Source: Thermomicrobiaceae bacterium | Lineage (GTDB): Bacteria > Chloroflexota > Chloroflexia > Thermomicrobiales > Thermomicrobiaceae | Length of the DNA stretch: 64,000 nucleotides | Reading direction: 5' to 3' | Assembly (NCBI GenBank): GCA_014874455.1 | Contig: JADBJL010000102.1 | Coordinates: 1-64,000 of the forward strand | In this document: piece by piece, positions 24,278 through 40,652 of the stretch | Layout: every line of letters begins with the position of its first letter | Numbering within the stretch: the stretch's first letter is position 1 | Notes under the pieces: model-generated | Told to the model about the DNA's origin: nothing | Databases searched by the model: none | What the model saw: only the letters and a program-made list of their open reading frames with translations | Position numbers and translations under genes: made by a program

Positions 24278-24291
24278 GGCGTCCCATCCGG

Positions 24292-24318
24292 TTAGCACTC
24301 AGCACGCTCGAGTGCTAG
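24292..24318 (-). promoter_or_regulatory. CIRCE operator
   Basis: TTAGCACTC-agcacgctc-GAGTGCTAG, N9 spacing, directly upstream of hrcA. Confidence 0.93.
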
Positions 24319-24525
24319 TCACTGCAAGGATAGAGCTTGATACGGCCGGTGTCAAGGTTTCCCGGCATACCGGCACGGGGGAGAGACCAGCGCGGCCGTC
24401 ACCTGAGGGCCGAGCGCCGAGTAGCACTGCCTGGCAGTTCCGGACGCCTGCGGGCGGCTCTGCTGCCAGCCAGCATGGCCACGGGGTGCACCACGGATCA
24501 CCCAGCGTCTCAGCACCTCAGGTGC

Positions 24526-24554
24526 TTGACAGCACGCGAGCACATCTCTAGAAT
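24526..24554 (+). promoter_or_regulatory. Sigma70-type promoter of tusA/sHdr locus
   Basis: TTGACA - 17 bp - TAGAAT. Confidence 0.75.
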
Positions 24555-24570
24555 GTGAGCAGTTCCGAAT

Positions 24571-24588
24571 GATACTCTACCGGAGTAC
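24571..24588 (+). promoter_or_regulatory. Putative CsoR/CstR-family operator upstream of tusA
   Basis: GATACTCTACCGGAGTAC; 16/18 identity to the reverse complement of 38764-38781; TACTC-N5-GAGTA inverted repeat. Confidence 0.65.
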
Positions 24589-24615
24589 AGTGGTACGCAT
24601 CAAGGGGGTAGATCT

Positions 24616-24858
24616 ATGGCGGACGTGCTCCAGCCGGACCGCGTCCTCGACTGCAGCGGTCTCCTCTGCCCGCTGCCCGTGATCCGCACATCGAAGGCGA
24701 TCAAAGAGATCCTGCCTGGCCAGATGCTCAAGGTGATCGCCACCGATCCGGGTGCCCCGGCCGATATGGAAGCCTGGGCGCGCCAGACCGGGAACGAGCT
24801 GGTCGATTCGCACGAGGAGGACGGGAAGTACGTCTTCTACTTCCGGCGTGTCCGTTGA
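24616..24858 (+). CDS. tusA: Sulfur carrier protein TusA
   Basis: LDCSGLLCPLPVIRTSKAIKEILPGQMLKVIATDPGAPADMEAWARQTGNEL. Confidence 0.95.
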   Translation: MADVLQPDRVLDCSGLLCPLPVIRTSKAIKEILPGQMLKVIATDPGAPADMEAWARQTGNELVDSHEEDGKYVFYFRRVR

Positions 24859-24875
24859 GGAGAGGAGGACTCGGC

Positions 24876-25397
24876 ATGGCTCGCAGCAACCCCGAGGCAC
24901 CCAAGCGCCTTGCGATCATCGCCAGCAAGGGCACGCTCGACTTCGCCTATCCGCCCTTCATTCTCGGCTCGACCGCCGCAGCCATGGGGTGGGAGGTCGG
25001 CATCTTCTTCACCTTCTACGGCCTGCCCCTGCTGCTGCGGGACTATGACCCCAAGGTGAGCCCGCTCGGTAACCCCGCTATGCCGCTGAAGATGCCGTTC
25101 GGCCCTCCCGCGCTGCGCCAGATTAGCTGGCCGATCCCGGCGCTCCTCGAAGCCCTGCCCGGCTTCAGCCTGCTCGCGACCTCGTTGATGGAACAGACCT
25201 TCGAGCAGAAGGGCGTGCCCTCGCTCCGCGAGCTGCGGCAACTGTGCATCGACGCCGACGTGAACCTGATCGCCTGCCAGATGACGATGGATGTCTTCGG
25301 CTTCAAGAGGGAGGACTTCATCCCGGAGTGCACCGTCGGCGGCGCGGCGACCTTCCTCGAGTTCGCCGCTGATGCTGATGTCTCGCTCTTCATCTAA
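24876..25397 (+). CDS. DsrE/DsrF-family (DsrE2-like) sulfurtransferase
   Basis: RLAIIASKGTLDFAYPPFILGSTAAAMGWEVGIFFTFYGLPLL; NLIACQMTMDVFGFKREDF. Confidence 0.9.
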   Translation: MARSNPEAPKRLAIIASKGTLDFAYPPFILGSTAAAMGWEVGIFFTFYGLPLLLRDYDPKVSPLGNPAMPLKMPFGPPALRQISWPIPALLEALPGFSLLATSLMEQTFEQKGVPSLRELRQLCIDADVNLIACQMTMDVFGFKREDFIPECTVGGAATFLEFAADADVSLFI

Positions 25398-25443
25398 GCG
25401 TCGCGGTGCACGGGCGCGCGGCTGAGGCGACTGGGAGGCAGCA

Positions 25444-25827
25444 GTGAGCGTGGAGAACAAAAAGATCCTCTACGTCCAGACCCACGGGGTCGACATGCCG
25501 GAGCGCAGCGCCACGCCCTTCTTCCTGGCCGCGGCCGCTGCGGCGATGGAGATCGAGGCCGCTATCTACTTCACCATGAACGGCCCGACGCTCCTGCGCA
25601 AGGGGGTGCCGGAGACGCTCGTCGTGCCGAAAGCGGGCGGTGGCGGAGCCAAGCTCAAGTACTTCATCGACCAGGCGCTCGACCTCGGGGTGACCCTGTA
25701 CGTCTGCCAGCCCTCGCTCGACTTGCACGGCCTGAAGCTCGAAGACCTGATCGACGGCGTGAGGATGATCGGCGGCGCCGCCTTCAACATGATGGCGCTC
25801 GAAGCGGACGCGGTGGTGGCGTTCTGA
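25444..25827 (+). CDS. DsrE-family sulfurtransferase (second, DsrE3-like)
   Basis: ILYVQTHGVDMPERSATPFFLAAAAAAMEIEAAIYFTMNGPTLLRKG; LYVCQPSLDLHGLK. Confidence 0.9.
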   Translation: MSVENKKILYVQTHGVDMPERSATPFFLAAAAAAMEIEAAIYFTMNGPTLLRKGVPETLVVPKAGGGGAKLKYFIDQALDLGVTLYVCQPSLDLHGLKLEDLIDGVRMIGGAAFNMMALEADAVVAF

Positions 25828-25828
25828 G

Positions 25829-26314
25829 ATGCCCTCCGGGAGCCGGCCGTACGTTCTGGTAAGGAGTTGCGTCTTGCCGCTGGATCTGTACTACCGGGTC
25901 GAGGAGCACGTCTGGGTGCGCCCCGAGCTGGATGGGACGGCCACCTTGGGTTTCTCCGATGTCGCCCAGACCGTCGCCGGGGCGATCCTCCACGTGACGT
26001 TCCGCCCCCTGGGGCGACGGTACGCCGTCGGCGCCCCGGTCGCCGTGCTCGAGAGCGCGAAGTGGCTGGGTGCGCTGCGGACGCCGGTCGCCGGGCAGCT
26101 CGTCGCCGTGAACGAGCGGCTCCTCACCGATGCCGGCCTGGTCAACCGGAGTCCCTACCGCAGCGGCTGGCTGGCGCGCCTGGCGCCCGACGACCTGGCC
26201 CGTGACCTCGCGGCGCTGCTCACGGGGCAGGCCGCGGCCGAGGCCTACGCCGCCTACATGGAGCGTCGCAACCTCGACGAGTGTGTGCACTGCGAAGGGT
26301 ACGAGCTGCCGTGA
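25829..26314 (+). CDS. Lipoate-binding protein LbpA1 (GcvH-like)
   Basis: YYRVEEHVWVRPELDGTATLGFSDVAQTVAGAILHVTFRPLG...VLESAKWLGALRTPVAGQLVAVN (lipoyl-Lys motif ESAKW); exact start uncertain. Confidence 0.88.
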   Translation: MPSGSRPYVLVRSCVLPLDLYYRVEEHVWVRPELDGTATLGFSDVAQTVAGAILHVTFRPLGRRYAVGAPVAVLESAKWLGALRTPVAGQLVAVNERLLTDAGLVNRSPYRSGWLARLAPDDLARDLAALLTGQAAAEAYAAYMERRNLDECVHCEGYELP

Positions 26315-26589
26315 TCCGGATCCTGCTCTTCACCCACCCCATCTGCTCCGGCTGCCAGGAGGCACTGGCGGCAGCGGAACGGCTCAGCGCCGAGAGGCCG
26401 GGCGAGGTCGAGCTCGAGGTGATTAGCCTCGCCAGCGCACGCGGTCGGCAGCGAGCCAGGGAGGCCGGCGTCGTCGTGGTGCCGACGCTCGTCGTCGGGG
26501 AACAGCGCATCGTCGGGGCGCCCACGATCGACGAACTGCAGCGGCTGGTCGACGACGCTCTTGCAGCCACGACGGGAGGTGCGCGGTGA
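26311..26589 (+). CDS. Thioredoxin/glutaredoxin-like protein with CSGC motif
   Basis: IRILLFTHPICSGCQEALAAAERL...VVVVPTLVVGEQRIVGAPT; GTG start. Confidence 0.75.
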   Translation: MIRILLFTHPICSGCQEALAAAERLSAERPGEVELEVISLASARGRQRAREAGVVVVPTLVVGEQRIVGAPTIDELQRLVDDALAATTGGAR

Positions 26590-27287
26590 GCGCGACCTGG
26601 AGCCCGGCCAAGGCCGGGCGCACCTATGCCGAGGTTCCGGAGGAGGAGAAGCGACGGCTCTTCGAGGAGGTCGTCGCCGACCCGCGGTACGAGGACTTCC
26701 TGTACGGGTGCTACGAGTGTGGCATCTGCGTCTCGGTCTGCCCCTCTGCGCGGTTCTACGACTTCAGCCCGCGGGTCATCGCTCAGGCGCTGAGCCGGGA
26801 GGACGTCGACCGGTTCTACGAGATCTTGATGGAGGACATCTGGAACTGCGCCCAGTGCTTCTCGTGCGTCCGCTGCCCGCGCGGCAACAACCCCGGCGGC
26901 CTGGTCACGTTGATCCGCGAGGTGGCGGTGCGGCACGGCCTCGAGCAGGCGCAAGAGGCGCTGCAGGGCTACAGCCGCGTCATCTACAAGATCATGCTGA
27001 AGGGCAACCAGGTCTCTCCCGATATGCTCCAGCCCGACTTCTTCCCCGACTGGGGCCCCTGGGTGCGCGAGTTCAGCCAGCACATGCACACCTGGCGCAA
27101 GGCGATCCCGGTCGACACCCTGCGCAGCGTGACCGACGCCGCCTGGCGCACCGACGACCGCACCCTCCGGGAGCTCTATACCATCTGGTTCGAGACCGGC
27201 AACATGGAGATCATCCGCGAGGTCGACGAGGGGCTGTACGAACTCCTGGTCGAAATCATGGAGGAAGAACTGGAGGCCAGAGCATGA
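26586..27287 (+). CDS. sHdrC1-like heterodisulfide reductase subunit C
   Basis: Two 4Fe-4S motifs CYECGICVSVCPSARF and CAQCFSCVRCPRG. Confidence 0.9.
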   Translation: MSATWSPAKAGRTYAEVPEEEKRRLFEEVVADPRYEDFLYGCYECGICVSVCPSARFYDFSPRVIAQALSREDVDRFYEILMEDIWNCAQCFSCVRCPRGNNPGGLVTLIREVAVRHGLEQAQEALQGYSRVIYKIMLKGNQVSPDMLQPDFFPDWGPWVREFSQHMHTWRKAIPVDTLRSVTDAAWRTDDRTLRELYTIWFETGNMEIIREVDEGLYELLVEIMEEELEARA

Positions 27288-28510
27288 GCGAGCTGAGCGA
27301 GCGCCTCGCCCCAGTGAGCGAGATCCGCGAGAAGAAGGCCTTGCCTGTCCGCCCCGATCCGGAGACGGCCCCGCGGCCAGACCTGCGGGAGGAGCTCTTC
27401 GAGCTCGAGGCGCGCGGCGAGCTGATCGTCCAGCGGGTGCCCGAACCCTATGTCGAGGTGACGACCAAGTTCGGCCGGGTCAAGAAGGTGCCGGTCGATC
27501 ACCTGTGGCACCACAAGTCATGTGGCCAGTGCGGTCACATTCCCGGCTATACGACCTCGATCCTCTGGCTCAACCGCCAGTTCGGGATCGACTACCACGA
27601 TCCGACCGACCAGACCTCCTGCACCGGATGGAACTACTACGCCTCAGCTACCTCCAACGCGGCTGCCCAGATCCTGGTGATGTGCCGGAACTTCGCGGCC
27701 GCCTACGAGACGGGGTACTACCCGCTCATCCACTGCGGCACCAGCTACGGCCACTACAAGGAGCTCCGCGAGCAACTGGTGCACCACGCCGACCTGCGCG
27801 ACCAGGTACGGCGGGTGCTGGACAAGCTCGGCAAGCCGCTGGTCGTCCCCGAGGAGATCGTCCACTACAGCGAGTGGGTGCACGTCATGCGCCACCGCGT
27901 GGCCGAGCGCCAGGTCGTCGACATGTCCAATGTGACTGCCTGTGTCCACCCGGCCTGCCATTACTATAAGATCGTCGCTGAGGACGCCATCTACGACCCG
28001 GATATCTACGGTGGCCAGCGCACGGCCACGGTCACGGCGCTGCTCCAGGCGCTGGGGATCAACGTGGCCGACTACTCCACCTGGTTCGACTGCTGTGGCT
28101 TCGGTTTCCGGCACATCCTGGTGCAGCGCGACTTCACCCGCTCCTTCGCCGTGCTGCGCAAGATCGAGGTCATGCGGGACGAAGTCAACCCCGATATGAC
28201 GGTCACCCACGACACCGGCTGCGTCACCACGCTCGACAAGAGCCAGTTCGCCGCCAAAGCCCACAAGCGGCGAGTGGGAGTGCCAGTCCTGGCCGACTCG
28301 CAGGTGGCTGCCCTGGCGATGGGGGCCCACCCCTTCCGCGTGCTCCAGCTCCACTGGCACTCGACCGACTGGCGGCCGCTGCTCGAGAAGCTGGGGATCG
28401 ATTGGGAACGGCACTGGCAGGAGTTCGAGGAGGATCTGGCGGCGATCGAGCGCGGGGAGAAGCCGGGCCTGACCTGGGAGGATGCCGAGCGCCCGGCCAT
28501 CGCCCGCTGA
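27284..28510 (+). CDS. sHdrB1-like heterodisulfide reductase subunit B
   Basis: CCG-type Cys-rich domains: HKSCGQCGHIPGYTTSILWLNRQ, ACVHPACHYYKI, FDCCGFGFRHI, HDTGCVTTLDKSQF. Confidence 0.9.
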   Translation: MSELSERLAPVSEIREKKALPVRPDPETAPRPDLREELFELEARGELIVQRVPEPYVEVTTKFGRVKKVPVDHLWHHKSCGQCGHIPGYTTSILWLNRQFGIDYHDPTDQTSCTGWNYYASATSNAAAQILVMCRNFAAAYETGYYPLIHCGTSYGHYKELREQLVHHADLRDQVRRVLDKLGKPLVVPEEIVHYSEWVHVMRHRVAERQVVDMSNVTACVHPACHYYKIVAEDAIYDPDIYGGQRTATVTALLQALGINVADYSTWFDCCGFGFRHILVQRDFTRSFAVLRKIEVMRDEVNPDMTVTHDTGCVTTLDKSQFAAKAHKRRVGVPVLADSQVAALAMGAHPFRVLQLHWHSTDWRPLLEKLGIDWERHWQEFEEDLAAIERGEKPGLTWEDAERPAIAR

Positions 28511-28534
28511 CGCCACGACCGAGGGGAGACCGCT

Positions 28535-29602
28535 GTGCTGCAGAATGGGCATCCAGTGCTGATCATCGGCGGCGGCCCGGGCGGGCTCGAAGCGGCGCGC
28601 ACCGTGGCCTCGTTGGGCCAGCCAGCGCTGCTCGTCGAGCGGCGCAACCGGCTCGGCGGAACCCCGGACGCCGAGCACTATGCCAAGCTGACTCACGGCT
28701 TCCGCGATGCTGAGGAGGCGATCGGCGAGCTGGTCGCGGCGGTCACCAGCGACCCGCTGGTCGAGGTGCTGACCGGCACCGAGGTCGTCGCCTGCGACGG
28801 CGAGGCTGGCGCCTTCCACGTCACGCTGCGCCGCGGCCAGGAGACGCACGAGCGCGTGGCCAGCACCATCATCGTCGCGACCGGCTTCCAGCACTTCGAC
28901 CCTGGTCGCGAGACCCAGATGTACAACTACTACTCGTTTCCCGACGTCGTGACGCTCGGTGACATGGAGGCGATGTTGAAGACCCACCAGGTGGTGCGGC
29001 CCTCCAACGGGCAGCCGCCGGAGCGCGTCGCCTTCATCCAGTGTGTCGGTTCGCGCGATCGGCAGATCGGCAACGAGTTCTGCTCCAAGGTCTGCTGTGG
29101 CATCGCCTCCAAGCAGGCCATCGAGATCAAGCAGCAGCTCCCGCACGCCCGGGTGTTCATCTTCTACATCGACATGCGGATGTACGGCTACTGGGAGAAC
29201 GAGCTCTACTGGCCCGCCCAGGAGCAGTACAAGGTCAACTACGTCAAGGGGATCGTGAGCGAGATCCTGCCCAAGGGCGACAAGCTCTTGATTCGCGGTG
29301 AGGACACCACCATGGGCCGGCCGATGGAAGTGACGGTCGACCTGGTGGTGCTCTCGGTCGGCATGGAGCCGAGCAGCGGCACCCGCAAGGTCGCAAAGCT
29401 GCTCGGCCTGGCGCAGAACAAGTACGGCTATATCGAAGCCGGCGGCCCGAGCGGCCTCGATCCGGTGGCAACCTCTCGCCCCGGTGTCTTCGTCGTCGGC
29501 GCGGCCGCTCGGCCGGCCGACCTGGACGACACGTTCGCGACGGCTGGCCTGGCGGCGGCGCGGGCCGTCGCGACGGCGCGGCGGGCTGCTGTGAGCGTGT
29601 AG
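28535..29602 (+). CDS. sHdrA-like FAD/4Fe-4S heterodisulfide reductase subunit A
   Basis: VLIIGGGPGGLEAARTVASLG; FIQCVGSRDRQIGNEFCSKVCCGIASKQAIEIK. Confidence 0.93.
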   Translation: MLQNGHPVLIIGGGPGGLEAARTVASLGQPALLVERRNRLGGTPDAEHYAKLTHGFRDAEEAIGELVAAVTSDPLVEVLTGTEVVACDGEAGAFHVTLRRGQETHERVASTIIVATGFQHFDPGRETQMYNYYSFPDVVTLGDMEAMLKTHQVVRPSNGQPPERVAFIQCVGSRDRQIGNEFCSKVCCGIASKQAIEIKQQLPHARVFIFYIDMRMYGYWENELYWPAQEQYKVNYVKGIVSEILPKGDKLLIRGEDTTMGRPMEVTVDLVVLSVGMEPSSGTRKVAKLLGLAQNKYGYIEAGGPSGLDPVATSRPGVFVVGAAARPADLDDTFATAGLAAARAVATARRAAVSV

Positions 29603-29660
29603 GCTGGCTCCGCACAGCCCGCTGGCGGTACGCTCGACCAGTAATCAGGGAGGAGCAGCG

Positions 29661-29915
29661 ATGGCGCGCCCGCGTGGGTTGGTACAAAGCGGATTGGTTC
29701 AGTTTCTCGCGAGTGGCCCTGGCCGGCTGCTCCGCATCGTCGCCGGGTTGGTGCTGGTGGTCGTCGGCCTGTGGCTGGTGAGGGGTACCTGGGGCTACGT
29801 GCTGGTGGTCATCGGCCTGGTGCCGATCGCGGCTGGGCTCTTCGACTTCTGTTTGCTGACTGCCATCTTCGGTGGCCCCTTCTGGGGGCGAGATGTCCGT
29901 GCCGCCAGGCGCTAG
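29661..29915 (+). CDS. DUF2892-like small membrane protein
   Basis: RLLRIVAGLVLVVVGLWLVRGTWGYVLVVIGLVPIAAGLFDFCLLTAIFG. Confidence 0.75.
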   Translation: MARPRGLVQSGLVQFLASGPGRLLRIVAGLVLVVVGLWLVRGTWGYVLVVIGLVPIAAGLFDFCLLTAIFGGPFWGRDVRAARR

Positions 29916-29932
29916 CGCGGTGGGAGAGCGCG

Positions 29933-30733
29933 ATGACGCAGCAGCCGCGACCGAGTCACCTGATCAAGCCGAAGACCGGCCCAGACGACCCCGAGTTGCT
30001 GGAGACCCTGCAGGAAGGGCTCAGCCAGATCCGGCCGGACGACGTGGAAAGCATCGCCGCCGAGCTCGTCGCGCGTCGGCAGCGCTTGCACGAGGCGGTG
30101 CGAGCGCTGGGCGAGAGCCAGGCTCTTCCCCCGGTGGCGCTCGGCGAGCTGTACCGGGCTGTCACCTGCGCCCGACGCCATGTCGAAGAGCTTGCCGCGG
30201 CGCTGCCGGGTGACCGGCTGCGAGCACCGGCTCGCGCGCTCCTGACCGACAGCGGGCCGGCAAGCGCACGCCTGGCCGCCTTCGTGGCGTCGCTCCCGGG
30301 GCTCGACCGTCGCCTGGCGCTGGAATTGGGCAGCGGGTTGCTCCACCTTGCCTCACCGCGGCGACACTGGCTGTGGACACGCTGGCTGTGGGACGTCCAG
30401 CACCAGACCGGAATCCTGCCGCTGATCGCCTCGAGCGCCCGCTCGCTCCGTGGTGACGACCTGGCTGGGCAGTATCAGAGCTTGAGCGGCCTCATCGCGA
30501 TGGGCACCGAGCTGGGCCAGAACAGCGGCTTGCTTCGGCCTGCCCTGCTCGAAGACCCGGAGATCGGCCCCTTCGCGGCCGATGCGTTCCTGGCGGCCGC
30601 GTACAGCGTGTACGTGTACGGCATCACCAACTGGCGGCTGAGCCGCGAGTTCAACCGCCTGCTCCCGTCACTTCCGGATCTGGCCCGGCGCCTCGTCGGC
30701 CTGCCGCCTGCTCGTGAGCGCCTGGCAGCGTGA
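29933..30733 (+). CDS. Conserved hypothetical protein of the sHdr locus
   Basis: ATG start after GGAGAG, tightly packed between the sHdrA and HdrCB genes; no recognisable domain. Confidence 0.75.
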   Translation: MTQQPRPSHLIKPKTGPDDPELLETLQEGLSQIRPDDVESIAAELVARRQRLHEAVRALGESQALPPVALGELYRAVTCARRHVEELAAALPGDRLRAPARALLTDSGPASARLAAFVASLPGLDRRLALELGSGLLHLASPRRHWLWTRWLWDVQHQTGILPLIASSARSLRGDDLAGQYQSLSGLIAMGTELGQNSGLLRPALLEDPEIGPFAADAFLAAAYSVYVYGITNWRLSREFNRLLPSLPDLARRLVGLPPARERLAA

Positions 30734-30745
30734 GAGGAGCTGCTC

Positions 30746-32053
30746 GTGGACTCGAGCCTGCGCAAAGTCCAGGATGTCTGGGAACAGGACACCGCGATCG
30801 TCGAGGGGGTAGACATCTCCGGCCCCTGGAACCGGATGTTCGGCCAGCGCGTGATCTGGGACTACACCCCCGAGCTGATCGACGAGATCGCCAGCCTCCC
30901 CGGGGCGGAGTCGTTCGCCTGGTGCTACCAGTGCGGCAAGTGCGTCCCGGTCTGCCCGGTCGATGTCGTCGGCGACTACGGGCCGCGCAAGCTGTACCGC
31001 AAGGCGCAGACCGGTATCAGTCTCCTCGACTCCCCCGACCTCTGGCTCTGCACGACCTGTATGAACTGCCTGCGGGTCTGCCCCAAGCAGGTGGACATGG
31101 TGCAGATCATGCCCGCCGCCCGGGAACAGGCGCTGCTCAGCGGGCGGCCGCTGCCCGCCGAGTTGCAAGAGGCGCTCGAGAACACCGCCCGCTACGGTAA
31201 CCCGTTGGGCCAGCCGCCGCGCAAGCGCGAAGCCTGGGTGAAGGATGCCGGCGTGCCGGTTCCGATCCTCCACCAGATCCAGCGGCCGGTCGAATGGCTC
31301 TGGTGGGTGGAGTGTTACCCCTCGTATCACCCCCGCGGCATCGACGCCTCGATCGCGCTGGCGCGCATCTTCCATGCGCTCGGGCTCGACTTCGGGATCC
31401 TCGGCCGGGAGGAGAAGTGCGCTGGCGACTCTCAGCGGCTGGCCGGCGAGCGTGGCCTCTTCGAGATGCTCGCCGAGGAGAATATCCGCACGCTGTCCAA
31501 GTACGAGTTCCACCACATCGTCGTGACCGACCCGCACGCGCTCAACGCGTTTCGCAAGCAGTATCCGAAGTACGGTGGCCAGTACGACGTCTGGCACTAC
31601 ACGACGCTGCTGGCTCGCGAGCTGCCGCGGCTGCGCCCGCTCTTGACGCGCCAGCTCCCCTACCGGCTGACGTTCCACGACCCGTGTTACCTCGGCCGGC
31701 ACAACGGAGAGTACGACGCGCCGCGCCAGCTCATCGAGGCGCTGCCCGGTGTCGAATTCACCGAGATGCCACGCTGCCGACAGAACTCCTATTGCTGTGG
31801 CGGCGGTGGGGGTGGCATGTGGCTCGACAGCTTCGCGGCCGGCCGCCAGCGCCGGCGCCTCTCCGAGGAGCGCGTGCTCGAGGCGGTTGCGACTGGCGCT
31901 GACACGCTGGTGATCTGCTGCCCCTACGAGGTATCGCGCTTCGAGGACGCGGTCAAGTCAACCGGGCACGAAGGGCGGCTGCGCGTCCGCGACATCGCGG
32001 AGCTGCTCGCTGAGGCGATGGGGTTGATCGGAGAGGAGCCGGCAAAGGCATGA
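30746..32053 (+). CDS. HdrC-HdrB fusion (sHdrB3-like iron-sulfur protein)
   Basis: N-terminal CYQCGKCVPVCPVD / CTTCMNCLRVCPKQ ferredoxin domain plus CCG domains (HDPCYLGRHNG, SYCCGGGGGGMW, CCPYEVSRFEDAVKSTG). Confidence 0.9.
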   Translation: MDSSLRKVQDVWEQDTAIVEGVDISGPWNRMFGQRVIWDYTPELIDEIASLPGAESFAWCYQCGKCVPVCPVDVVGDYGPRKLYRKAQTGISLLDSPDLWLCTTCMNCLRVCPKQVDMVQIMPAAREQALLSGRPLPAELQEALENTARYGNPLGQPPRKREAWVKDAGVPVPILHQIQRPVEWLWWVECYPSYHPRGIDASIALARIFHALGLDFGILGREEKCAGDSQRLAGERGLFEMLAEENIRTLSKYEFHHIVVTDPHALNAFRKQYPKYGGQYDVWHYTTLLARELPRLRPLLTRQLPYRLTFHDPCYLGRHNGEYDAPRQLIEALPGVEFTEMPRCRQNSYCCGGGGGGMWLDSFAAGRQRRRLSEERVLEAVATGADTLVICCPYEVSRFEDAVKSTGHEGRLRVRDIAELLAEAMGLIGEEPAKA

Positions 32054-32817
32054 CGCTCGCGGTGATTCTCAAACAGGTACCCGATGTCGTCGAGGAACTG
32101 GCGATCGCCCCGTCGGGTACCGACCTCGATCGCGACAGTGTCTCCTACGTCGTCAACGAGTTCGACGAGCATGCGCTGGAGGAGGCCCTGCTCCTGCGCG
32201 AAGCGACTGGTGAGGACGTGGTCGTGGTCGGCGTGGATACGACGGGCGAACTCGACCAGGCCCTCTATACGGCTCTCGCCAAGGGTGCTCAACGCGCCGT
32301 CAAGCTGGTCGGTGACTTCGAGGGCTCCTGGCTGAGTACCCGCGCGCTGGCGGGGCTCCTGGCACCAGTGATCCGGGAACTGTCGCCGCGTCTCGTCCTG
32401 ACCGGGGTGCAGGCGCCCGACGACCTCGACGGGCAGCTCGCTCCCACGCTCGGTGCGCTGCTCGACTGGCCACACACCGGTGTCGTGGTCGGCACCGAGC
32501 TGGCGGACGGCGTCGTTCGGGTGCGCAAGGAGCTGTGGGGGGGCATCATGCTCGATCTGGAGCTGGCGACACCAGCGGTGCTCGGCATCCAGGCGGCGCG
32601 GGCTACGCCGCGCTATGTCCCCGTGGGGAGAGTGCGGCAGGCCATGCGGGAGAGCACCATCGAGGAAGTGGAAGTGGAGACGCCGGTCGAGAGCGCACCG
32701 AAGCTCTCCAGGTTACGGGCACCGGAGGCTGCCGGCCGGGCGGAGATGCTGACCGGCAGTCCAAGTGACGTGGCCGAGCGCATCCTCGAGATCTTGCGCG
32801 CGCGCGGGCTGTACTGA
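32050..32817 (+). CDS. etfB: Electron transfer flavoprotein beta subunit
   Basis: VNEFDEHALEEALLLRE, LTGVQAPDDLDGQLAPTLGALLDWPHTGVV. Confidence 0.92.
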   Translation: MTLAVILKQVPDVVEELAIAPSGTDLDRDSVSYVVNEFDEHALEEALLLREATGEDVVVVGVDTTGELDQALYTALAKGAQRAVKLVGDFEGSWLSTRALAGLLAPVIRELSPRLVLTGVQAPDDLDGQLAPTLGALLDWPHTGVVVGTELADGVVRVRKELWGGIMLDLELATPAVLGIQAARATPRYVPVGRVRQAMRESTIEEVEVETPVESAPKLSRLRAPEAAGRAEMLTGSPSDVAERILEILRARGLY

Positions 32818-32837
32818 GGGAGAGCGGAGGCAGGCCG

Positions 32838-33803
32838 ATGGCAGAGCACATCCTCGTTCTCGCGGAGCAACTCGAGGGCCAGCTCACCGACGTGACGTTG
32901 GAACTCATCGGCGTTGCCCGGCGGCTCGCCGCCTCGCGCGGCAGCGGTGTCGATGCGCTGGTACTCGGTGACGGGGTGAGCTCGCTCGCGGCGACGGTGC
33001 CGGCTGACCGCACGCTGCTCATGGAACACCCGGCGCTTCGCCTCTTCAACCCGGAGGCGGCCCAGCGAGCGCTGGAGGCCGTGGCCCGGGAGACATCACC
33101 CTGGTTGGTGCTGGTACCGAACACCTCGCTCGGGATGGACGTCGCGGCTGCAGTCGCCACCCGGCTGGGCTGGCCGCTGGTCGCCTATTGCCAGGCGATC
33201 GAGGAGCGCGACGGCCAGCTCGTGGCGACCAGCCAGCTCTTCGGAGGCAAGATCCTAGCCGACTGCCCTGTGGGGACAGACCACGCCGTCCTCTCCGTCC
33301 TGGCGGGCGCGTTCTCCAGCGAAGCCGCTGCTCCCGAGCCGCCGGCTCGGATCGAGCGGCTCACGCCACCGGCTGAACTCGACGCGCTGCGCGTGCGAGC
33401 AACCGGCCTGGAGCGACCCGAGGCTGCCGACGTCGATATCACGCGCGCCGAGAAGATCGTCGCGGTCGGCCGGGGTATCGAGAGCAAGGACAACCTGGAG
33501 CTGGCAGAGGAGCTCGCGGAGGGACTGGGGGCCGTGGTGGCCGCCTCGCGGCCGCTGGTGGATGCCGGCTGGCTCCCGCGCTCGCGGCAGGTCGGCAAGT
33601 CGGGGCTCAAGGTCAAGCCGAGACTCTACCTGGCACTCGGGATCAGCGGGGCGCCTGAACACCTGGAAGGGATGCGAGACGCCGAGCTGATCATCGCGGT
33701 CAACAAGGATCCCAAGGCACCGATCTTCGACGTGGCGCACTACGGCGTAGTCGCTGACCTGTTCGACGTGGCCGAAGCCCTGCAGGAACGGCTCGGAGGG
33801 TGA
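32838..33803 (+). CDS. etfA: Electron transfer flavoprotein alpha subunit
   Basis: AVGRGIESKDNLELAEELAEGLGAVVAASRPLVDAGWLP, GKSGLKVKPRLYLALGISGAPEHLEGM, AVNKDPKAPIFDVAHYGVV. Confidence 0.96.
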   Translation: MAEHILVLAEQLEGQLTDVTLELIGVARRLAASRGSGVDALVLGDGVSSLAATVPADRTLLMEHPALRLFNPEAAQRALEAVARETSPWLVLVPNTSLGMDVAAAVATRLGWPLVAYCQAIEERDGQLVATSQLFGGKILADCPVGTDHAVLSVLAGAFSSEAAAPEPPARIERLTPPAELDALRVRATGLERPEAADVDITRAEKIVAVGRGIESKDNLELAEELAEGLGAVVAASRPLVDAGWLPRSRQVGKSGLKVKPRLYLALGISGAPEHLEGMRDAELIIAVNKDPKAPIFDVAHYGVVADLFDVAEALQERLGG

Positions 33804-33807
33804 CCGG

Positions 33808-35841
33808 GTGCTGACGACACCTGAGCGCATCGCGTTTCTCCTGTTGGCGCTCGCCTCATTGCTGCTGACGCTGCGTGGCGTCCGGCTGATCGTGCGTGCG
33901 ATCGGCCGGGGGTATGGGCGCCCTTCCTGGGGCGTCTTCCTGCGCCGGGTGATCCCCGTCAGCCTGGATATCCTGCTGCAGCGGCCCATCTTCCGTACCC
34001 GGCCGCTGGTGAGCCTGCTGCATGCCGGCGTCTTCTTCGCCTTCGTCTTCTACGGCCTGGTCAACGTCCTCGATCTTCTGGAGGGGTTCAACGGCTACAG
34101 CACGCTTCACGCCAGCGGCGTCGCCTCCGCCTACAACCTCGTTGCCGACCTCCTCAGTGTGGCCGCGCTGCTCGGCATGCTCGGCCTCCTGCTCCGGCGC
34201 TTCGGCCTCCGCCCCTTCCGCTTCAACCGGGCGGTGTTCCTCTTACCCAGCGTCCGCTTCGGCATCTCGCGTGACTCCGCGATCGTCGGTGGCTTCATCC
34301 TGCTGCATGTCGGCTCGCGCTGGGCCGGGCAGGCGGTGCGGATCGCCGAGAGCGGGCGCCCGGACTGGAGCCAGCCGACTGCGAGCCTGCTGGCGGCGCT
34401 GCTCGGCGGGCTCGACGCGGCGACGCTTGCCGTCGCCAGTCACGTGACCTGGTGGCTGGCGCTGGGGCTGATCCTGGCCTTCCTCCCGTACTTCCCGTAC
34501 TCGAAGCATATCCACCTCTTCATGGCACCGCTCAACCTGATCCTCCGCGAGGAGAAGCCCCTGGGGCGGCTCGAGCCCCCGGTAGGCAACGGGCAGGTGG
34601 GCGCCGCCCGGTTGGAGGAGCTGCGCTGGTACCAGATCCTCGACGCCTACGCCTGCATCATGTGCAACCGTTGCCAGGACGTCTGCCCGGCCCACGGCAC
34701 AGGCCGGGCGCTCAGCCCCGCCGCGCTGGAGATCAACAAGCGGTACTACCTCAACCGTAATCTGAACAGCTTCGCCGGGGGCACAGCGTCGCCGCCGCTG
34801 TTGGAGACCGCGACCAGCCGAGCGGCGGTCTGGTCGTGTACGACGTGCGGTGCCTGTGTGCGGATCTGCCCGGTCGGCAACCGTCCGATGCTCGACCTGA
34901 TCGATCTCCGGCGCCACCTCGTCTTCGCTGGCGACGAGATCGATCCCAATCTCCAAACGGCACTCGAGAGCCTGAGCCGGTACGGCAACTCGTTCGGCAA
35001 GTCGGCCCGGCAGCGGGCGCGCTGGGCTAAGGATCTCCCCTTCCCGGTCAAGGACGCGCGCAAGGAGCCGGTCGAGTACCTCTGGTTTGTCGGCGACTTC
35101 GCCTCGTTCGACCCGCGGATGCAGGAGAACACGAAGACGGTCGCGCAGCTCTTTCACCAGGCCGGGCTCGACTTCGGCATCCTGTACGAGGACGAATGGA
35201 ACAGCGGCAACGACGTGCGGCGCGTCGGCGAGGAAGGGCTCTTCGAGCTTCTGGTCGAGCACAACCTGGCAGCCCTGGGCAAGGCACGCTTCCGCGCCAT
35301 CGTCACCACCGACCCGCACAGCTACAACGCCCTGCGCAACGAGTACTCCGCGCTGGGGCTGGACGTTCCGGTCTACCACTACACCGAGCTACTCGCCGAG
35401 TTGCTCGAGCGTGGCCAGCTCCAGCCGTCCAAGCGGCTGCAGGCGGTCGCGACCTACCACGATCCCTGCTACCTCGGGCGGTACAACCGCATCACCGCCG
35501 CGCCGCGTCGTGTCATCCGGGCGCTGGGCCTGGAGCTCCGCGAGATGCCGCGCCACGGCGAGAACACGTACTGCTGCGGCGCCGGTGGCGGGCAGATCTG
35601 GATGGACAGCGGCGGCCAGGAGCGGCCGAGCGAGCAGCGGATCCGCGAGGCGATCGCGCTCGGTGAGGACGTGCGCTACTTCGTCGTGGCGTGCCCCAAG
35701 GACATGGCAATGTACAGCGACGCGGTCAAGACCACTGGCTACGAGCACCGGCTGACGGTGATCGATGTGGCCCGGCTCGTCGCCTGGGCCACCGGCCTGA
35801 TCGAGCTCGAGCGCGAGGCTGCTCCGGTGAGCCAGTCATGA
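33808..35841 (+). CDS. Membrane ETF:(mena)quinone oxidoreductase, cytochrome b + HdrC/HdrD-like (EMO type)
   Basis: N-terminal TM cytochrome b-like region, CIMCNRCQDVCPAHGTG and CTTCGACVRICPVGNRPM ferredoxin motifs, CCG domains (HDPCYLGRYN, TYCCGAGGGQIWMD); follows etfBA. Confidence 0.9.
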   Translation: MLTTPERIAFLLLALASLLLTLRGVRLIVRAIGRGYGRPSWGVFLRRVIPVSLDILLQRPIFRTRPLVSLLHAGVFFAFVFYGLVNVLDLLEGFNGYSTLHASGVASAYNLVADLLSVAALLGMLGLLLRRFGLRPFRFNRAVFLLPSVRFGISRDSAIVGGFILLHVGSRWAGQAVRIAESGRPDWSQPTASLLAALLGGLDAATLAVASHVTWWLALGLILAFLPYFPYSKHIHLFMAPLNLILREEKPLGRLEPPVGNGQVGAARLEELRWYQILDAYACIMCNRCQDVCPAHGTGRALSPAALEINKRYYLNRNLNSFAGGTASPPLLETATSRAAVWSCTTCGACVRICPVGNRPMLDLIDLRRHLVFAGDEIDPNLQTALESLSRYGNSFGKSARQRARWAKDLPFPVKDARKEPVEYLWFVGDFASFDPRMQENTKTVAQLFHQAGLDFGILYEDEWNSGNDVRRVGEEGLFELLVEHNLAALGKARFRAIVTTDPHSYNALRNEYSALGLDVPVYHYTELLAELLERGQLQPSKRLQAVATYHDPCYLGRYNRITAAPRRVIRALGLELREMPRHGENTYCCGAGGGQIWMDSGGQERPSEQRIREAIALGEDVRYFVVACPKDMAMYSDAVKTTGYEHRLTVIDVARLVAWATGLIELEREAAPVSQS

Positions 35842-36314
35842 GCGGGCGGATTGAAGACACCATCGTCGAAGAGCTCGCGGCGCGCTTCTGGAGCCTGGCT
35901 CGTGCCCTCGACCGGCTGGACCGACTCGAGACCGCGCAGGACTTCCGCGGCTGGCTCGACAGCGTGGGCGAGGACGAGCGCCAGCTCGAAGAGCTCTCGC
36001 GCGCGCTCGTCCTGCACGGCCTCGGCGCAGCGCTCGACCCGGTCAACCTCCGCATCCTCGCCCACTTGCGTCCGGAAGAACCGGTCTCGCTGGCTGCGCT
36101 CTCCGCACAGTGTGGCCTGGGACGCGTCCCTTTGCACTTGCGGCTGGGGGTACTGGCGCACGCCGGGCTGGCGATCCTCGAGCTCGATCAGGAGTCAGCA
36201 CGCGCGACGAGGCTCGGCGAGGCGCTGGCAGCCTGGTTGGACGGGCTCGCAGCCGCCCTCCAACGCACGATCGCGGCTCGGCTCGAGCCGATCGAGGGGC
36301 GGGGAAGCGGATGA
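35838..36314 (+). CDS. Winged-helix-like protein of unknown function
   Basis: VNLRILAHLRPEEPVSLAALSAQCGLGRVPLHLRLGVLAHAGLAILELDQES. Confidence 0.7.
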   Translation: MSGRIEDTIVEELAARFWSLARALDRLDRLETAQDFRGWLDSVGEDERQLEELSRALVLHGLGAALDPVNLRILAHLRPEEPVSLAALSAQCGLGRVPLHLRLGVLAHAGLAILELDQESARATRLGEALAAWLDGLAAALQRTIAARLEPIEGRGSG

Positions 36315-36598
36315 TGACGGTTCCCTGCCCGTACTGCGACTACCAGGGCCGGCGCAGCGAGGTGCACGCCCACCTGGCGGAAGCGCACGCGAGCGAGATC
36401 TCCTGGGGAGTCCAGGAGCGCACCGGGCACACCTACGCCACCATCTCGTGCCCCTTGTGCGGGGCGCGCTGGGAGCAGGTGCTGCGCAAGGCCCGCCGCG
36501 ATCCGTCGTTCGTGGACGAGTTCCGCTTCGAAATCAGCTTGGTGGTGTTCGACCTGTTGCTTCACCACCTGCGTGGGGAGTATGGGATCGGGGAGTGA
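36311..36598 (+). CDS. Zinc-finger-like protein (two CxxC pairs) of unknown function
   Basis: CPYCDYQGRRSEVHAHLAEAH ... CPLCGARWEQVL. Confidence 0.7.
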   Translation: MMTVPCPYCDYQGRRSEVHAHLAEAHASEISWGVQERTGHTYATISCPLCGARWEQVLRKARRDPSFVDEFRFEISLVVFDLLLHHLRGEYGIGE

Positions 36599-36610
36599 AG
36601 GGGCGACGCG

Positions 36611-37048
36611 ATGGCCGAGGTGCGTGGTTGTCAGATTCCTGAAGACCTCTACTACTGGCCGGAGAAGCACGTCTGGGCGCGGCCGGAGCCGGACGGTACG
36701 GTCACGATCGGCATCACGGACACGGCGCAGCACCTCGCCAAGACGATCATCAGCGTGACGCCGCGCGGTGTCGGCCGCCAGGTGCAGCGAGGGCGAAGCG
36801 CCGGAACGCTCGAGAGTGGCAAGTGGGTTGGCCCGGTCACCTCGCCGATCAGCGGCGAGATCGTTGCCGTCAACGACGCGGCGGTGGCCAACCCGAAGCT
36901 CTTGAACGAGGATCCGTACGGAGCCGGCTGGTTCGCCCGGATCCGCCCCGATGACTGGGCGAGCGAGTCGCGCGAGCTGGTGACCGGCGCCGAGGCTGTG
37001 GAGGCGTACCGGGCCGTCCTGGAGCGCGAAGGGATCTCGTGCGCGTGA
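36611..37048 (+). CDS. Lipoate-binding protein LbpA2 (GcvH-like)
   Basis: YYWPEKHVWARPEPDGTVTIGITDTAQHLAKTIISVTPRGVG...TLESGKWVGPVTSPISGEIVAVN. Confidence 0.9.
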   Translation: MAEVRGCQIPEDLYYWPEKHVWARPEPDGTVTIGITDTAQHLAKTIISVTPRGVGRQVQRGRSAGTLESGKWVGPVTSPISGEIVAVNDAAVANPKLLNEDPYGAGWFARIRPDDWASESRELVTGAEAVEAYRAVLEREGISCA

Positions 37049-37509
37049 GCGTCGGCGAGGCAGCTCTCGTCTACCGCGGCTGCATCATCCCCGAAGGCCT
37101 GCACTACGATGTCGAGCGCGACGTCTGGGTGCGCTTCGAGGACGAGAGCGCCGTGCTCGGGATGACCGACCCGGCACAGACCCGGGCTGGGAAGCTCGTC
37201 GCGATCCGCTTCAAGCGCGTCGGCGCCACAGTGCCGAAGGGCCGCGCGCTCGCCACCATCGAAAGCGGGAAGTGGGTGGGGCCGTTCCCGGCGCCGTTCA
37301 CCTGCGAGATCCTGGAGACGAACCAGGCTGGCTTCGAGCGCGACATCCTGCTGGCCAACAAAGACCCCTACGGCGAAGGCTGGCTCGTGCGCGTGCGCCC
37401 GCTCGACCGGGCCGAGCTCACCTCGCTGGTGACCGGCGAGGAGGCGCTCCGCCGCTACCGTGCGCGGATCGACGAACTCGATGTCAGTTGCTTCCGCTGC
37501 GCCAAGTGA
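37039..37509 (+). CDS. Lipoate-binding protein LbpA3 (GcvH-like)
   Basis: HYDVERDVWVRFEDESAVLGMTDPAQTRAGKLVAIRFKRVG...TIESGKWVGPFPAPFTCEILETN. Confidence 0.9.
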   Translation: MRVSVGEAALVYRGCIIPEGLHYDVERDVWVRFEDESAVLGMTDPAQTRAGKLVAIRFKRVGATVPKGRALATIESGKWVGPFPAPFTCEILETNQAGFERDILLANKDPYGEGWLVRVRPLDRAELTSLVTGEEALRRYRARIDELDVSCFRCAK

Positions 37510-37531
37510 ACCGAGTGAGAGGAGGGCAGCG

Positions 37532-38605
37532 ATGCTCAGGGTACGGGTCGTCGACCTGGGACTGGTGAGCCCGGTTCGCTCCCAGAGCGTCTACCACGCT
37601 GTCGGCTACGCTTTCCGCTCTGGCGATCCTCCGACGATCCTGCTCGTCTCGACCACCGACCCGTACGTCTCGATCGGCTTTCACCAGGACGCGGAGCGCG
37701 AGGTCGACCTGGAGCACTGCCGCGCCGCCGGGCTACCGGTCATCCGCCGCGAGGTCGGTGGCGGCGCGGTCTACCTCGACCACAACCAGGTCTTCACCCA
37801 GTGGATCTTCCCCCGCGATGCGGTGCCGGTGCGCCTGGAAGACCGGTTCGCGCTCTACGTCCAGCCGCTGGTCGAGACGTACCGCTCGCTGGGTATCGAG
37901 GCCGCCTGGCGACCGGTCAACGACATCCACGTCCGCGGTCGCAAGATCGGGGGCACGGGCGCCGCCAGCCTCGGCGAATCGGAAGTGCTGGTGGGCAGCC
38001 TGATGTTCGATTTCAATCACCAGCAGATGGCCCGGGTGCTGAAGGTCTCATCGGAGAAGATGCGCGACAAGGTCGTCCAGAGCCTGGAGGAGTACGTGAC
38101 CACCATGCGCCGTGAGCTCGGCACGGTACCGCCGCGCGACGAGGTGGTGCGACGCTACCTGGATGCCTGCGCGGCGGCGCTCGGAGCCCAGCTCGTGCCG
38201 GGAGCGTTGACTGCTGAGGAAGAGGAGCTCGCGGCGCAACTCGACGAGCGCTTTCTGTCCGAGGAGTGGCTCTTCCAGAAGGGTGGCTTGCGGCAACGCG
38301 GCATCAAGATCCACGAGGACGTCCGGCTGGTGGAGTCGGCGATCAAAGTGCCTGGAGGATTGATCCGCGTCATCGTGCGCGTGCACGGCGGTCGGATCGA
38401 TGACCTCAGTCTCAGCGGCGACTTCACGCTGCTCCCGGCGCTGGGCCTGGCGGCAATCGAACAGGCCGTGCGCGGGCTGGCGGCACGCCGGGACGAGCTC
38501 AGCAGGCGCATCCAGGACGTCTACCGCGCGCTCGGGGTGCAGTCTCCCGGCGTGACACCGGACGACTTCGCCAGTGCGATCGTCCAGGCGGTGCAGGCAG
38601 CGTGA
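37532..38605 (+). CDS. Lipoate-protein ligase family protein
   Basis: TTDPYVSIGFHQDAEREVDLEHCRAAGLPVIRREVGGGAVYLDHNQVFTQWIF, VNDIHVRGRKIGGTGAASLGES. Confidence 0.92.
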   Translation: MLRVRVVDLGLVSPVRSQSVYHAVGYAFRSGDPPTILLVSTTDPYVSIGFHQDAEREVDLEHCRAAGLPVIRREVGGGAVYLDHNQVFTQWIFPRDAVPVRLEDRFALYVQPLVETYRSLGIEAAWRPVNDIHVRGRKIGGTGAASLGESEVLVGSLMFDFNHQQMARVLKVSSEKMRDKVVQSLEEYVTTMRRELGTVPPRDEVVRRYLDACAAALGAQLVPGALTAEEEELAAQLDERFLSEEWLFQKGGLRQRGIKIHEDVRLVESAIKVPGGLIRVIVRVHGGRIDDLSLSGDFTLLPALGLAAIEQAVRGLAARRDELSRRIQDVYRALGVQSPGVTPDDFASAIVQAVQAA

Positions 38606-38727
38606 GCGCCGGGCGGGCCTCGGCCTCGATGCTCGTGGGAGGCGCTGCCTGCGCGTCCGGGATGCCGGTGGCGCAGGCTGCAGCGAGCCGACCGGCACGG
38701 TACCCGAAGAGTGCGCGTCGGGTGAGC

Positions 38728-38756
38728 TTGACGTCTTGTGGAGTGACCAGTAGAGT
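38728..38756 (+). promoter_or_regulatory. Sigma70-type promoter of the CsoR/CstR-family gene
   Basis: TTGACG - 17 bp - TAGAGT. Confidence 0.65.
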
Positions 38757-38763
38757 CGGGCCG

Positions 38764-38781
38764 GTACCCCAGTAGAGTATC
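38764..38781 (-). promoter_or_regulatory. Putative CsoR/CstR operator (autoregulatory)
   Basis: GTACCCCAGTAGAGTATC; reverse complement GATACTCTACTGGGGTAC matches the tusA-upstream site with 2 mismatches. Confidence 0.65.
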
Positions 38782-38826: not shown

Positions 38827-39105
38827 ATGACATCGCTGGCACAGCTCGATCCGGCAACGCGACAGGCGCTCGTCGAGCGCCTCAAGCGCATCGAGGGGCA
38901 GGCTCGCGGGATCGCCAGGATGGTCGAAAACGGGCGCGACTGCCTGGAGGTCGTGCAGCAGCTCGCGGCGATGCGTGCGGCCGTCGACAGCCTGAGCGCC
39001 GAACTGGTGCAGGTGATGGTGGAGCAGTGCTGGCAGCGCGACGCCGCAGCGAGCTCCAAGACCCTTTCTCAGGTCATCAGGACGCTCGTGCGGGCCGGTC
39101 GGTGA
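38827..39105 (+). CDS. CsoR/FrmR/CstR-family (DUF156) metal/thiol-sensing repressor
   Basis: LVERLKRIEGQARGIARMVENGRDCLEVVQQLAAMRAAVDSLSAELVQVMVEQC. Confidence 0.92.
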   Translation: MTSLAQLDPATRQALVERLKRIEGQARGIARMVENGRDCLEVVQQLAAMRAAVDSLSAELVQVMVEQCWQRDAAASSKTLSQVIRTLVRAGR

Positions 39106-39122: not shown

Positions 39123-40652
39123 ATGCGGTACGGGTTCGTCATCGACCACCGGAAATGCATCGGTTGCCACGCCTGCACCGTGGCGTGCAAGTCGGAGAAC
39201 GAGGTGCCGCTGGGCGTCTACCGTACCTGGGTGAAGTACATCGAAAAGGGGGCATTCCCTCATACCCGCCGGTACTTCACGGTGCTGCGCTGCAACCACT
39301 GCGATGATGCCCCCTGTGTCACGATCTGCCCCACGAAAGCGCTGTTCCGCCGGCCCGACGGGATCGTCGACTTCGATGCGAGCCGGTGCATCGGCTGCAA
39401 GTCGTGCATGCAGGCCTGCCCCTACGATGCGATCTATATCGACCCGATCACACACACGGCGGCCAAGTGCAACTATTGCAGCCACCGGGTCGACCAGGGG
39501 CTGCTGCCGGCCTGCGTGGTCGTCTGTCCAGAAAAGGCGATCATCGCTGGCGACCTGGACGATCCGACCAGCGAGATCCACCAGCTTGTGGCCCGCGAGC
39601 AGGTGAGCGTCCGCAAGCCCGAGCAGGGTACACGGCCGAAGCTGTTCTACATCGGGGCGGACGACGCCAGCCTGACGCCGGAAGTGCAGACCCGGCAGAA
39701 CGGATACCTCTGGGCCCAGCTCCTGCCGGACGGCCGCCCGGCCGAGGCGACGCGCGGCGACGAGCTGCTTCCCGGCCCGGCGGAGGCGCGGGTCGCCTAC
39801 GACGTCTGGCACCCGAAGCCCTGGGGCTGGAAGGTGGCCAGCTACCTCTGGACGAAATCGATCGCCGCCGGGGTGCTGGGCCTCGCGCCTCCGCTCCTGC
39901 TGCTCGGCCAGGTGGCGCACCGCGCCACCTTCGGGGTCGCAGCGCCGCTCCTCGCGCTCCTCTTCGTCCTGCTCACCGCAGCGCTCCTGGTGTGGGATCT
40001 GAAGCGCCCCGAGCGGTTCTGGTTCCTGCTCGTCAAGCCGAACCCCCGCTCGTGGCTCGTCTGGGGCGGGTACATCCTGGTGCTCTTCGGCCTGCTGGCC
40101 TTCCTCTGGTTCGTCGCTGGCGTGCTCACCACAGTGCCAAGCCTGTTGCTCGTCCTCGGGATACCGGTAGCCGTCGCCGCAGCCGGTTATACCGCCTTCC
40201 TCTTCGGCCAGGCCGAAGGGCGGGATTTCTGGCAGAGCCCGCTGCTGCTGCCACAGCTCCTGGCCCAGGCGGCGGTCGCGGGGGCCAGTGTCCTCTTGTT
40301 CGCCGGTGTCGCCCTGGGCGTGCCGAGCCAGGAGCTCCGGGTACTGGGCATGGCGCTGGTGACCGGACTGGTGGTGCTGGCGTTGCTGGTCGCCGGTGAG
40401 CTGTGGCTCCCGCACGTGAACGCCCATGTCCACAAGACGGTGCGCTTGTTGACCCACGGCCCTTACCGCACCGAATTGCTCATCCTCGGGCTGGGGATCG
40501 GCGTGGTGATGCCGCTGGCAGCGCTCGCCCTCGGTTGGGCGAGCGAGGCGGTGGAGGGGTGGAGCGTGGTCGCCGCGCTCGCCGCGCTGGCAGGCCTGTG
40601 GAGCTACGAGCGGATCTGGGTGAGCGCCGGCCAGGACGTACCGTTGAGCTGA
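39123..40652 (+). CDS. 4Fe-4S ferredoxin subunit fused to NrfD-type membrane subunit (SoeBC/PsrBC-like)
   Basis: Four Cys clusters (CIGCHACTVAC, CNHCDDAPCVTIC, CIGCKSCMQAC, CNYCSHRVDQGLLPACVVVC) followed by multiple TM helices. Confidence 0.88.
   Translation: MRYGFVIDHRKCIGCHACTVACKSENEVPLGVYRTWVKYIEKGAFPHTRRYFTVLRCNHCDDAPCVTICPTKALFRRPDGIVDFDASRCIGCKSCMQACPYDAIYIDPITHTAAKCNYCSHRVDQGLLPACVVVCPEKAIIAGDLDDPTSEIHQLVAREQVSVRKPEQGTRPKLFYIGADDASLTPEVQTRQNGYLWAQLLPDGRPAEATRGDELLPGPAEARVAYDVWHPKPWGWKVASYLWTKSIAAGVLGLAPPLLLLGQVAHRATFGVAAPLLALLFVLLTAALLVWDLKRPERFWFLLVKPNPRSWLVWGGYILVLFGLLAFLWFVAGVLTTVPSLLLVLGIPVAVAAAGYTAFLFGQAEGRDFWQSPLLLPQLLAQAAVAGASVLLFAGVALGVPSQELRVLGMALVTGLVVLALLVAGELWLPHVNAHVHKTVRLLTHGPYRTELLILGLGIGVVMPLAALALGWASEAVEGWSVVAALAALAGLWSYERIWVSAGQDVPLS

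Follow-up and report, generated by a model that had tools for sequence, protein, structure and literature searches.

The stretch of Thermomicrobiaceae bacterium DNA analyzed here (GCA_014874455.1, contig JADBJL010000102.1, positions 1 to 64,000; hereafter the window, 64,000 nucleotides in full) contains a sulfur-oxidation (sHdr) operon beginning with tusA, followed by a shorter operon beginning with a CsoR/RcnR-family regulator gene (csoR). The promoters of both are accompanied by closely similar pseudo-palindromic sites. These two sites are very probably operators of a CstR-like repressor, the product of 38827-39105, which would silence both operons until they are induced together by sulfane sulfur.

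Paired sites at the tusA and csoR promoters

The sequences GATACTCTACCGGAGTAC at 24571-24588 (forward strand) and GATACTCTACTGGGGTAC at 38764-38781 (reverse strand) are identical at 16 of 18 positions, in agreement with the initial annotation, which had proposed them as matching operators. A scan of the window allowing up to three mismatches to the 18-mer returns exactly these two (shuffled mean 0.04), and they are the only copies within two mismatches in the whole assembly (3,365,287 bases in 114 contigs); a third genomic match appears at three mismatches, and the motif is thus not scattered through the genome. The near-consensus promoters described earlier for both operons are present as given. 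The sites are listed below as 20-mers, with their matches to TACNNTACNNNNGTANNGTA, the 20-bp consensus that in-vitro selection yielded for TTHA1953, a Sox repressor of the CsoR family in Thermus thermophilus (PMC10318464).

24526-24554, forward strand: promoter of the tusA/sHdr operon, sigma-70-type, TTGACA-N17-TAGAAT (11/12 match, 0.1 expected; equivalents in six relatives)
24573-24592, forward strand: putative operator O1, TACTCTACCGGAGTACAGTG (11/12 to the TTHA1953 consensus; 20-23 bp before tusA in seven genomes)
38728-38756, forward strand: promoter of the csoR-like operon, sigma-70-type, TTGACG-N17-TAGAGT (9/12 match, 0.0 expected; equivalents in six relatives)
38760-38779, reverse strand: putative operator O2, TACTCTACTGGGGTACCGGC (10/12 to the TTHA1953 consensus; 2-3 bp after the -10 in seven genomes)

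The suggestion that each site overlaps the transcription start holds at csoR, with only 3 bp between the -10 and the 20-mer, but not at tusA, whose 20-mer starts 18 bp past the -10 (about +12 to +31) in the window and 40-43 bp past it in the sister genus. Across the seven genomes the csoR site keeps a constant 2-3 bp from the -10 while its distance from the start codon ranges between 16 and 47, a pattern that speaks for a DNA operator rather than an RNA element at csoR. The tusA sites are steadier with respect to the start codon (20-23 bp) than to the -10 (18-43 bp), as an RNA-level element in the tusA leader might be. It is nevertheless barely conceivable that the repeated sequence is such an element or a chance match, since there are only two copies in 3.37 Mb, both are at promoters of linked function and are conserved in two genera, and the csoR spacing is that of a DNA operator.

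The intergenic region that contains the tusA promoter also has, at 24290-24360, a divergent hrcA-grpE-dnaK promoter (TTGACA-17-TATCCT, reverse strand) and an AGCAC/GTGCT inverted repeat.

Conservation among relatives

In a sample of 158 genomes of the class (G000 is the genome containing the window), the hdrB1 protein is present in 11 and a close orthologue of the regulator (about 60% identity or more) in six, all of them sHdr-positive. Genes and motif were mapped in all 11 sHdr-positive genomes. The site precedes tusA at seven of seven assembled tusA promoters of sHdr-positive Thermomicrobiaceae (G000, G117, G118, G119, G120, G122 and G123) and likewise precedes the orthologous csoR in seven of seven genomes (G000, G117, G118, G120, G122, G123 and Thermomicrobium roseum DSM 5159, in which the orthologue is TRD_RS12040 on megaplasmid NC_011961); the site pair is conserved across two genera. 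Contig ends cut both promoters in G124, and G119 is 62% complete. In G118 and G120 the tusA and csoR loci occupy separate contigs, and common descent of a single locus therefore does not explain the pair.

The site was not found at tusA in G020, G034 and G035, which are sHdr-positive members of another family without the regulator orthologue, nor at the iron-sulfur (FeS)-molybdoenzyme operons of G109 and G111, which have neither sHdr nor the orthologue. Conservation in related Thermomicrobia, raised in the initial annotation as a point to be checked at tusA, is thus seen at both the tusA and the csoR promoters, while the loci just listed, whose genomes lack the repressor orthologue, also lack the motif.

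The degenerate pattern TACTSWACYSGRGTANNG has 16 exact matches across the 158 genomes: tusA and csoR promoters account for 13 and other places for three. Its reversed control has two; because the pattern was derived from these same sites, the informative part is its near absence elsewhere. The three other exact matches, in G063, G132 and G154, look like coding sequence, judged from the bases only. A one-mismatch site, TACTATACCCGGGTAGCG, on contig C20 of the window genome and of G117, was considered as a third regulon member and rejected as a likely chance match: it is upstream of a fakA/degV-type kinase gene and an rpmB-like open reading frame (ORF; both assigned by eye) rather than sulfur genes, and its conservation is limited to two close species.

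It is highly unlikely that the tusA site is bound by some other regulator, such as the helix-turn-helix (HTH)-like product of 35835-36314 within the sHdr operon, with the csoR site as its second target. The model for this would be Hyphomicrobium denitrificans, in which sHdr is controlled by the ArsR-family repressor sHdrR (PMC12423496), and the 35835-36314 product has an HTH_20 match of 25.1 bits, under the curated cut-off of 27. However, G034 encodes a homologue of this ORF yet does not have the motif, and the single cysteine of the ORF product is not conserved in the sister genus. The motif fits a CsoR-family operator and is found at the promoter of the repressor gene itself wherever a genome has the repressor.

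Extent and consensus of the site

The 13 aligned sites give TACT.tACc.G.GTA..G, a conserved unit reaching beyond the 18-mer. The initial annotation took the 18-mer with TACTC/GAGTA arms as the operator, and although it is a pseudo-palindrome as stated, a longer 20-mer fits better. We favour a predicted 20-bp TACNNTAC-N4-GTANNGTA symmetry because a G beyond GTA is conserved and relatives have full 20-bp palindromes; the 15-bp and 20-bp palindromes share columns, and the alignment separates them only in part. Matches to TACNNTACNNNNGTANNGTA are 11/12 for the tusA sites, 10/12 for the csoR sites and 9/12 for T. roseum csoR, and only three places in the window genome, O1 among them, have TACNNTACNNNNGTANNGTA with one mismatch. 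In other Thermomicrobiales families and one member of the Ktedonobacterales, sites matching at 9-12/12 are located 44-102 bp before the genome's own csoR-like gene; in more distant class members the upstream matches are at background (6-8/12).

The regulator

The 38827-39105 protein matches PF02583 with 80.3 bits (cut-off 22.8) over residues 12-87 and contains Cys39 and Cys68, 29 residues apart. The position of the copper-ligand His is occupied by Met (C-M-C) in all seven orthologues. Its best solved relatives in a phmmer search are 7mq1-7mq3, entries labelled CsoR that we take to be the persulfide sensor CstR of Streptococcus (SpCstR); 7mq1 has C-N-C with the same cysteine spacing as the window protein. 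The earlier description as CsoR/CstR-like is correct as to family and can be narrowed to the CstR kind, with two cysteines and no His; by these sequence features the protein is CstR-like and not copper-sensing.

A copper-responsive CsoR linking copper to sulfur oxidation would also belong to PF02583, and the operators of CsoR proteins are likewise pseudo-palindromic, with comparable TAC/GTA ends. This is extremely unlikely, however, given the replacement of the Cu(I) ligand His by Met and the presence in the genome of a separate CsoR (contig C25, 24449-24769; L090:4449-4769) that has the C-H-C fingerprint, adjoins an HMA P-type ATPase gene and has two CsoR-type palindromes of its own upstream, GATACCCCTCCGGGGTAT and TATACCCTGCCCGGGTAT, unlike the sulfur operators. 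The neighbours of the window csoR are sulfur and molybdoenzyme genes, with no copper efflux gene adjoining. A Cu-CsoR identity for 38827-39105 was rejected on the basis of the C-M-C fingerprint.

In a tree of 48 sequences, all the Chloroflexota homologues included along with the window protein form one clade (95/76), each being C-x-C with x other than His. The three homologues whose neighbourhoods were examined have csoR-(DsrE2-TusA)-MBL/rhodanese or csoR-MBL/rhodanese. Persulfide dioxygenase-like genes are found elsewhere in most genomes of the family, and none of the contigs bearing them in the window genome has a pattern match with zero or one mismatch. The simplest reading is that a CstR-type clade with a TACNNTAC operator came to control sHdr in the Thermomicrobiaceae.

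A csoR-DsrE2-TusA-MBL/rhodanese operon is present in a Ktedonobacterales genome (L101:9899-12769, DAIDJF010000035.1), with a 12/12 TTHA1953-type site 102 bp before the regulator. Judged by its genes and predicted site, this is a clean CstR-type unit outside the Thermomicrobia.

The csoR operon

A 221-bp gap containing its own promoter separates the csoR operon from the sHdr operon. It contains three genes with gaps of 17 and 18 bp.

38827-39105, forward strand: CsoR/RcnR-family (PF02583) repressor, CstR-like, with Cys39/Met64/Cys68
39123-40652, forward strand: fused 4Fe-4S/NrfD membrane subunit (PF13247, PF03916)
40671-43586, forward strand: molybdopterin oxidoreductase, polysulfide/thiosulfate reductase or SoeA-like (PF00384/PF01568/PF04879)

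Because O2 heads this three-gene unit, it would control the oxidoreductase genes in addition to the regulator. The initial proposal that the repressor controls the sHdr locus and itself is thus supported by the motif evidence, but the unit behind O2 is not the regulator alone.

The closest solved structure to the molybdopterin oxidoreductase is 2vpw. The molybdoenzyme is present in 10 of the 11 sHdr-positive genomes and in 19 sHdr-negative genomes (Fisher p about 1e-7). It comprises a molybdenum subunit and a fused FeS/NrfD subunit, where a SoeABC sulfite dehydrogenase has a cytoplasmic molybdenum subunit with FeS and NrfD subunits, and a relative on a Rhodococcus plasmid is within a DsrE-TusA-FeS/NrfD-molybdenum subunit operon. 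It is likely that the enzyme acts on a sulfur substrate. Sulfite oxidation of the Soe kind is a guess as to its role, and an attractive one because sHdr yields sulfite.

A match of 11/12 to the TTHA1953 consensus at 39219-39238, inside the FeS/NrfD coding sequence and identical in the sister species, is probably a coding coincidence. An in-frame TAG considered in the molybdoenzyme gene of G109/G111 was not seen in the alignment and was dropped. The csoR-FeS/NrfD-molybdoenzyme genes of T. roseum are on the flagellar megaplasmid (NC_011961, L176:20001-24752). With the trd_ tags of the published sHdr cluster taken as chromosomal, the T. roseum regulon would span two replicons.

Proposed mechanism

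In the proposed circuit the reduced (thiol) repressor would occupy O2, adjoining the -10 of the csoR operon, and O1, in the first transcribed part of tusA, silencing both the sHdr operon (tusA...lplA) and the csoR-FeS/NrfD-molybdopterin oxidoreductase operon. The position of O2 fits promoter occlusion, and that of O1 fits a block of early elongation or of the initial complex. The inducer would be cytoplasmic sulfane sulfur, in the form of persulfides for which TusA/DsrE are the probable carriers; sulfur would bridge Cys39 and Cys68 between adjacent subunits, the repressor would leave the DNA, and both operons would be induced together. The sHdr module would then convert sulfane sulfur to sulfite and the molybdoenzyme would reduce quinone with electrons taken from a sulfur compound, sulfite being the likeliest, with autoregulation of the repressor resetting the system. 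Repression by the thiol form and release by sulfur bridging are suggested by analogy with CstR and YrkD (PMC5480029, PMC9918477) and with TTHA1953. In T. roseum the 19-gene sHdr cluster is the locus under the strongest regulation, rising about 45-fold in stationary phase (PMC6776052), which indicates that the sHdr operon is tightly switched.

Some observations weigh against this circuit. Streptococcus CstR falls outside the Chloroflexota C-x-C clade in the tree of 48, but on a long branch. The induction in T. roseum (PMC6776052) came from nutrient limitation and not from a sulfur compound. In vitro, TTHA1953 stayed bound to DNA with NaHS but reacted to oxidants that form disulfides (PMC10318464); even the closest characterized protein thus has no established persulfide inducer.

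Alternatively, the repressor could govern both operons yet respond to starvation signals, or to thiol oxidation in general with formation of disulfides, instead of persulfide. This would accord with the loss of DNA binding by TTHA1953 through disulfide formation with Cu(II) or H2O2 but not NaHS (PMC10318464), as well as with the stationary-phase rise of the T. roseum cluster noted above (PMC6776052). We regard it as unlikely, though, since NaHS is itself no sulfane donor and clade members adjoin persulfide dioxygenase/rhodanese, DsrE and TusA genes, the usual setting of a persulfide-sensing CstR. Induction by sulfane sulfur is the preferred reading.

Gene content of the sHdr operon

The sHdr operon (24616-38605) is gap-poor, with all gaps 58 bp or less, and has all of the hallmarks of an sHdr locus: hdrC1B1A-hdrC2B2 together with lbpA, tusA/dsrE and a lipoate ligase gene.

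24616-24858, forward strand: tusA, the first gene of the sHdr operon (PF01206, E=4.7e-23)
24876-25397 and 25444-25827, forward strand: two DsrE-family sulfur carriers (PF13686/PF02635)
25829-38605 (the whole remainder), forward strand: first LbpA-like, thioredoxin-like, HdrC1, HdrB1, HdrA, YgaP-like transmembrane and an unassigned ORF; then HdrC2, EtfB, EtfA, an HdrB2 fusion, an HTH-like ORF, a zinc-finger-like ORF, LbpA2, LbpA3 and lipoate ligase

EtfA and EtfB are assigned from likeness in position and sequence. Two small conserved ORFs in the operon have weak matches, to HTH_20 (35835-36314) and to the Di19 zinc finger (36311-36598). A 273-residue protein (29912-30733) has no Pfam match and is kept in sHdr loci across the class (31-96% identity). 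Beyond the csoR operon, a 1609-residue ORF at 47354-52183 looks by eye like a P-type ATPase with a long N-terminal extension.

Comparison with known systems

CsoR-family control of Sox (2023), CstR control of tusA/dsrE/persulfide dioxygenase (PDO) genes and ArsR-family control of sHdr are already known. No paper linking a CsoR-family protein to sHdr was found in the literature searched, nor is a regulator or operator proposed for the T. roseum sHdr cluster in the passages of PMC6776052 consulted. The window would thus present a known type of regulator with a new target pathway. The cluster described in that paper (trd_0160-0142) contains hdrABC, etfAB, tusA, two dsrE and three lbpA, matching the window operon.

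TTHA1953 is the closest counterpart. It is a ~10 kDa CsoR-family protein that senses through Cys39 and Cys68 (Barrows & Van Dyke 2023, PMC10318464), has the operator TACNNTACNNNNGTANNGTA, controls sulfur oxidation and coexists with a separate copper CsoR, as in the window genome; the likeness of the proteins is in the C39/C68 pair and approximate mass, as taken from the published description. It differs in its targets, namely sox and cytochrome genes located at a distance from the regulator gene, its own promoter not being among the validated ones. Here the targets would be sHdr and a molybdoenzyme operon to which the regulator gene itself belongs.

CstR of Staphylococcus aureus and YrkD of Bacillus licheniformis also have two cysteines without the copper-ligand His (PMC5480029, PMC9918477) and control tusA/dsrE-type carriers and persulfide-handling genes, just as a tusA-dsrE operon has the site here. 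They serve sulfide/persulfide detoxification (CstB/PDO, SQR), however, whereas the window operon is the energy-conserving sHdr operon. The sHdrR and SoxR proteins of H. denitrificans resemble the present proposal as sulfane-sulfur-responsive repressors of sHdr/sox, sHdrR binding upstream of its own gene (PMC12423496, PMC10451225), but they belong to the ArsR family with an unrelated fold, and would represent a convergent solution to the same task.

We consider it reasonably probable that in Thermomicrobiaceae a persulfide-detoxification repressor has been rewired as a master switch of lithotrophy, with a CstR-type protein that senses the sulfane-sulfur intermediates of the pathway and induces sHdr together with a quinone-linked molybdoenzyme, the regulon spanning two replicons in Thermomicrobium. 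The conserved operators would then predict how the most strongly induced locus of T. roseum is switched, and the uncharacterized FeS/NrfD-molybdoenzyme pair would be tied to sHdr, making its suspected role in sulfite oxidation testable. Extension of the TTHA1953 operator to another phylum provides a ready consensus for finding such regulons. A candidate regulator is thereby named for an sHdr system outside the Proteobacteria, joining the literatures of persulfide sensing by CstR and of sHdr lithotrophy; if correct, it is a CsoR-family counterpart that does the job of the ArsR-family sHdrR in Proteobacteria.

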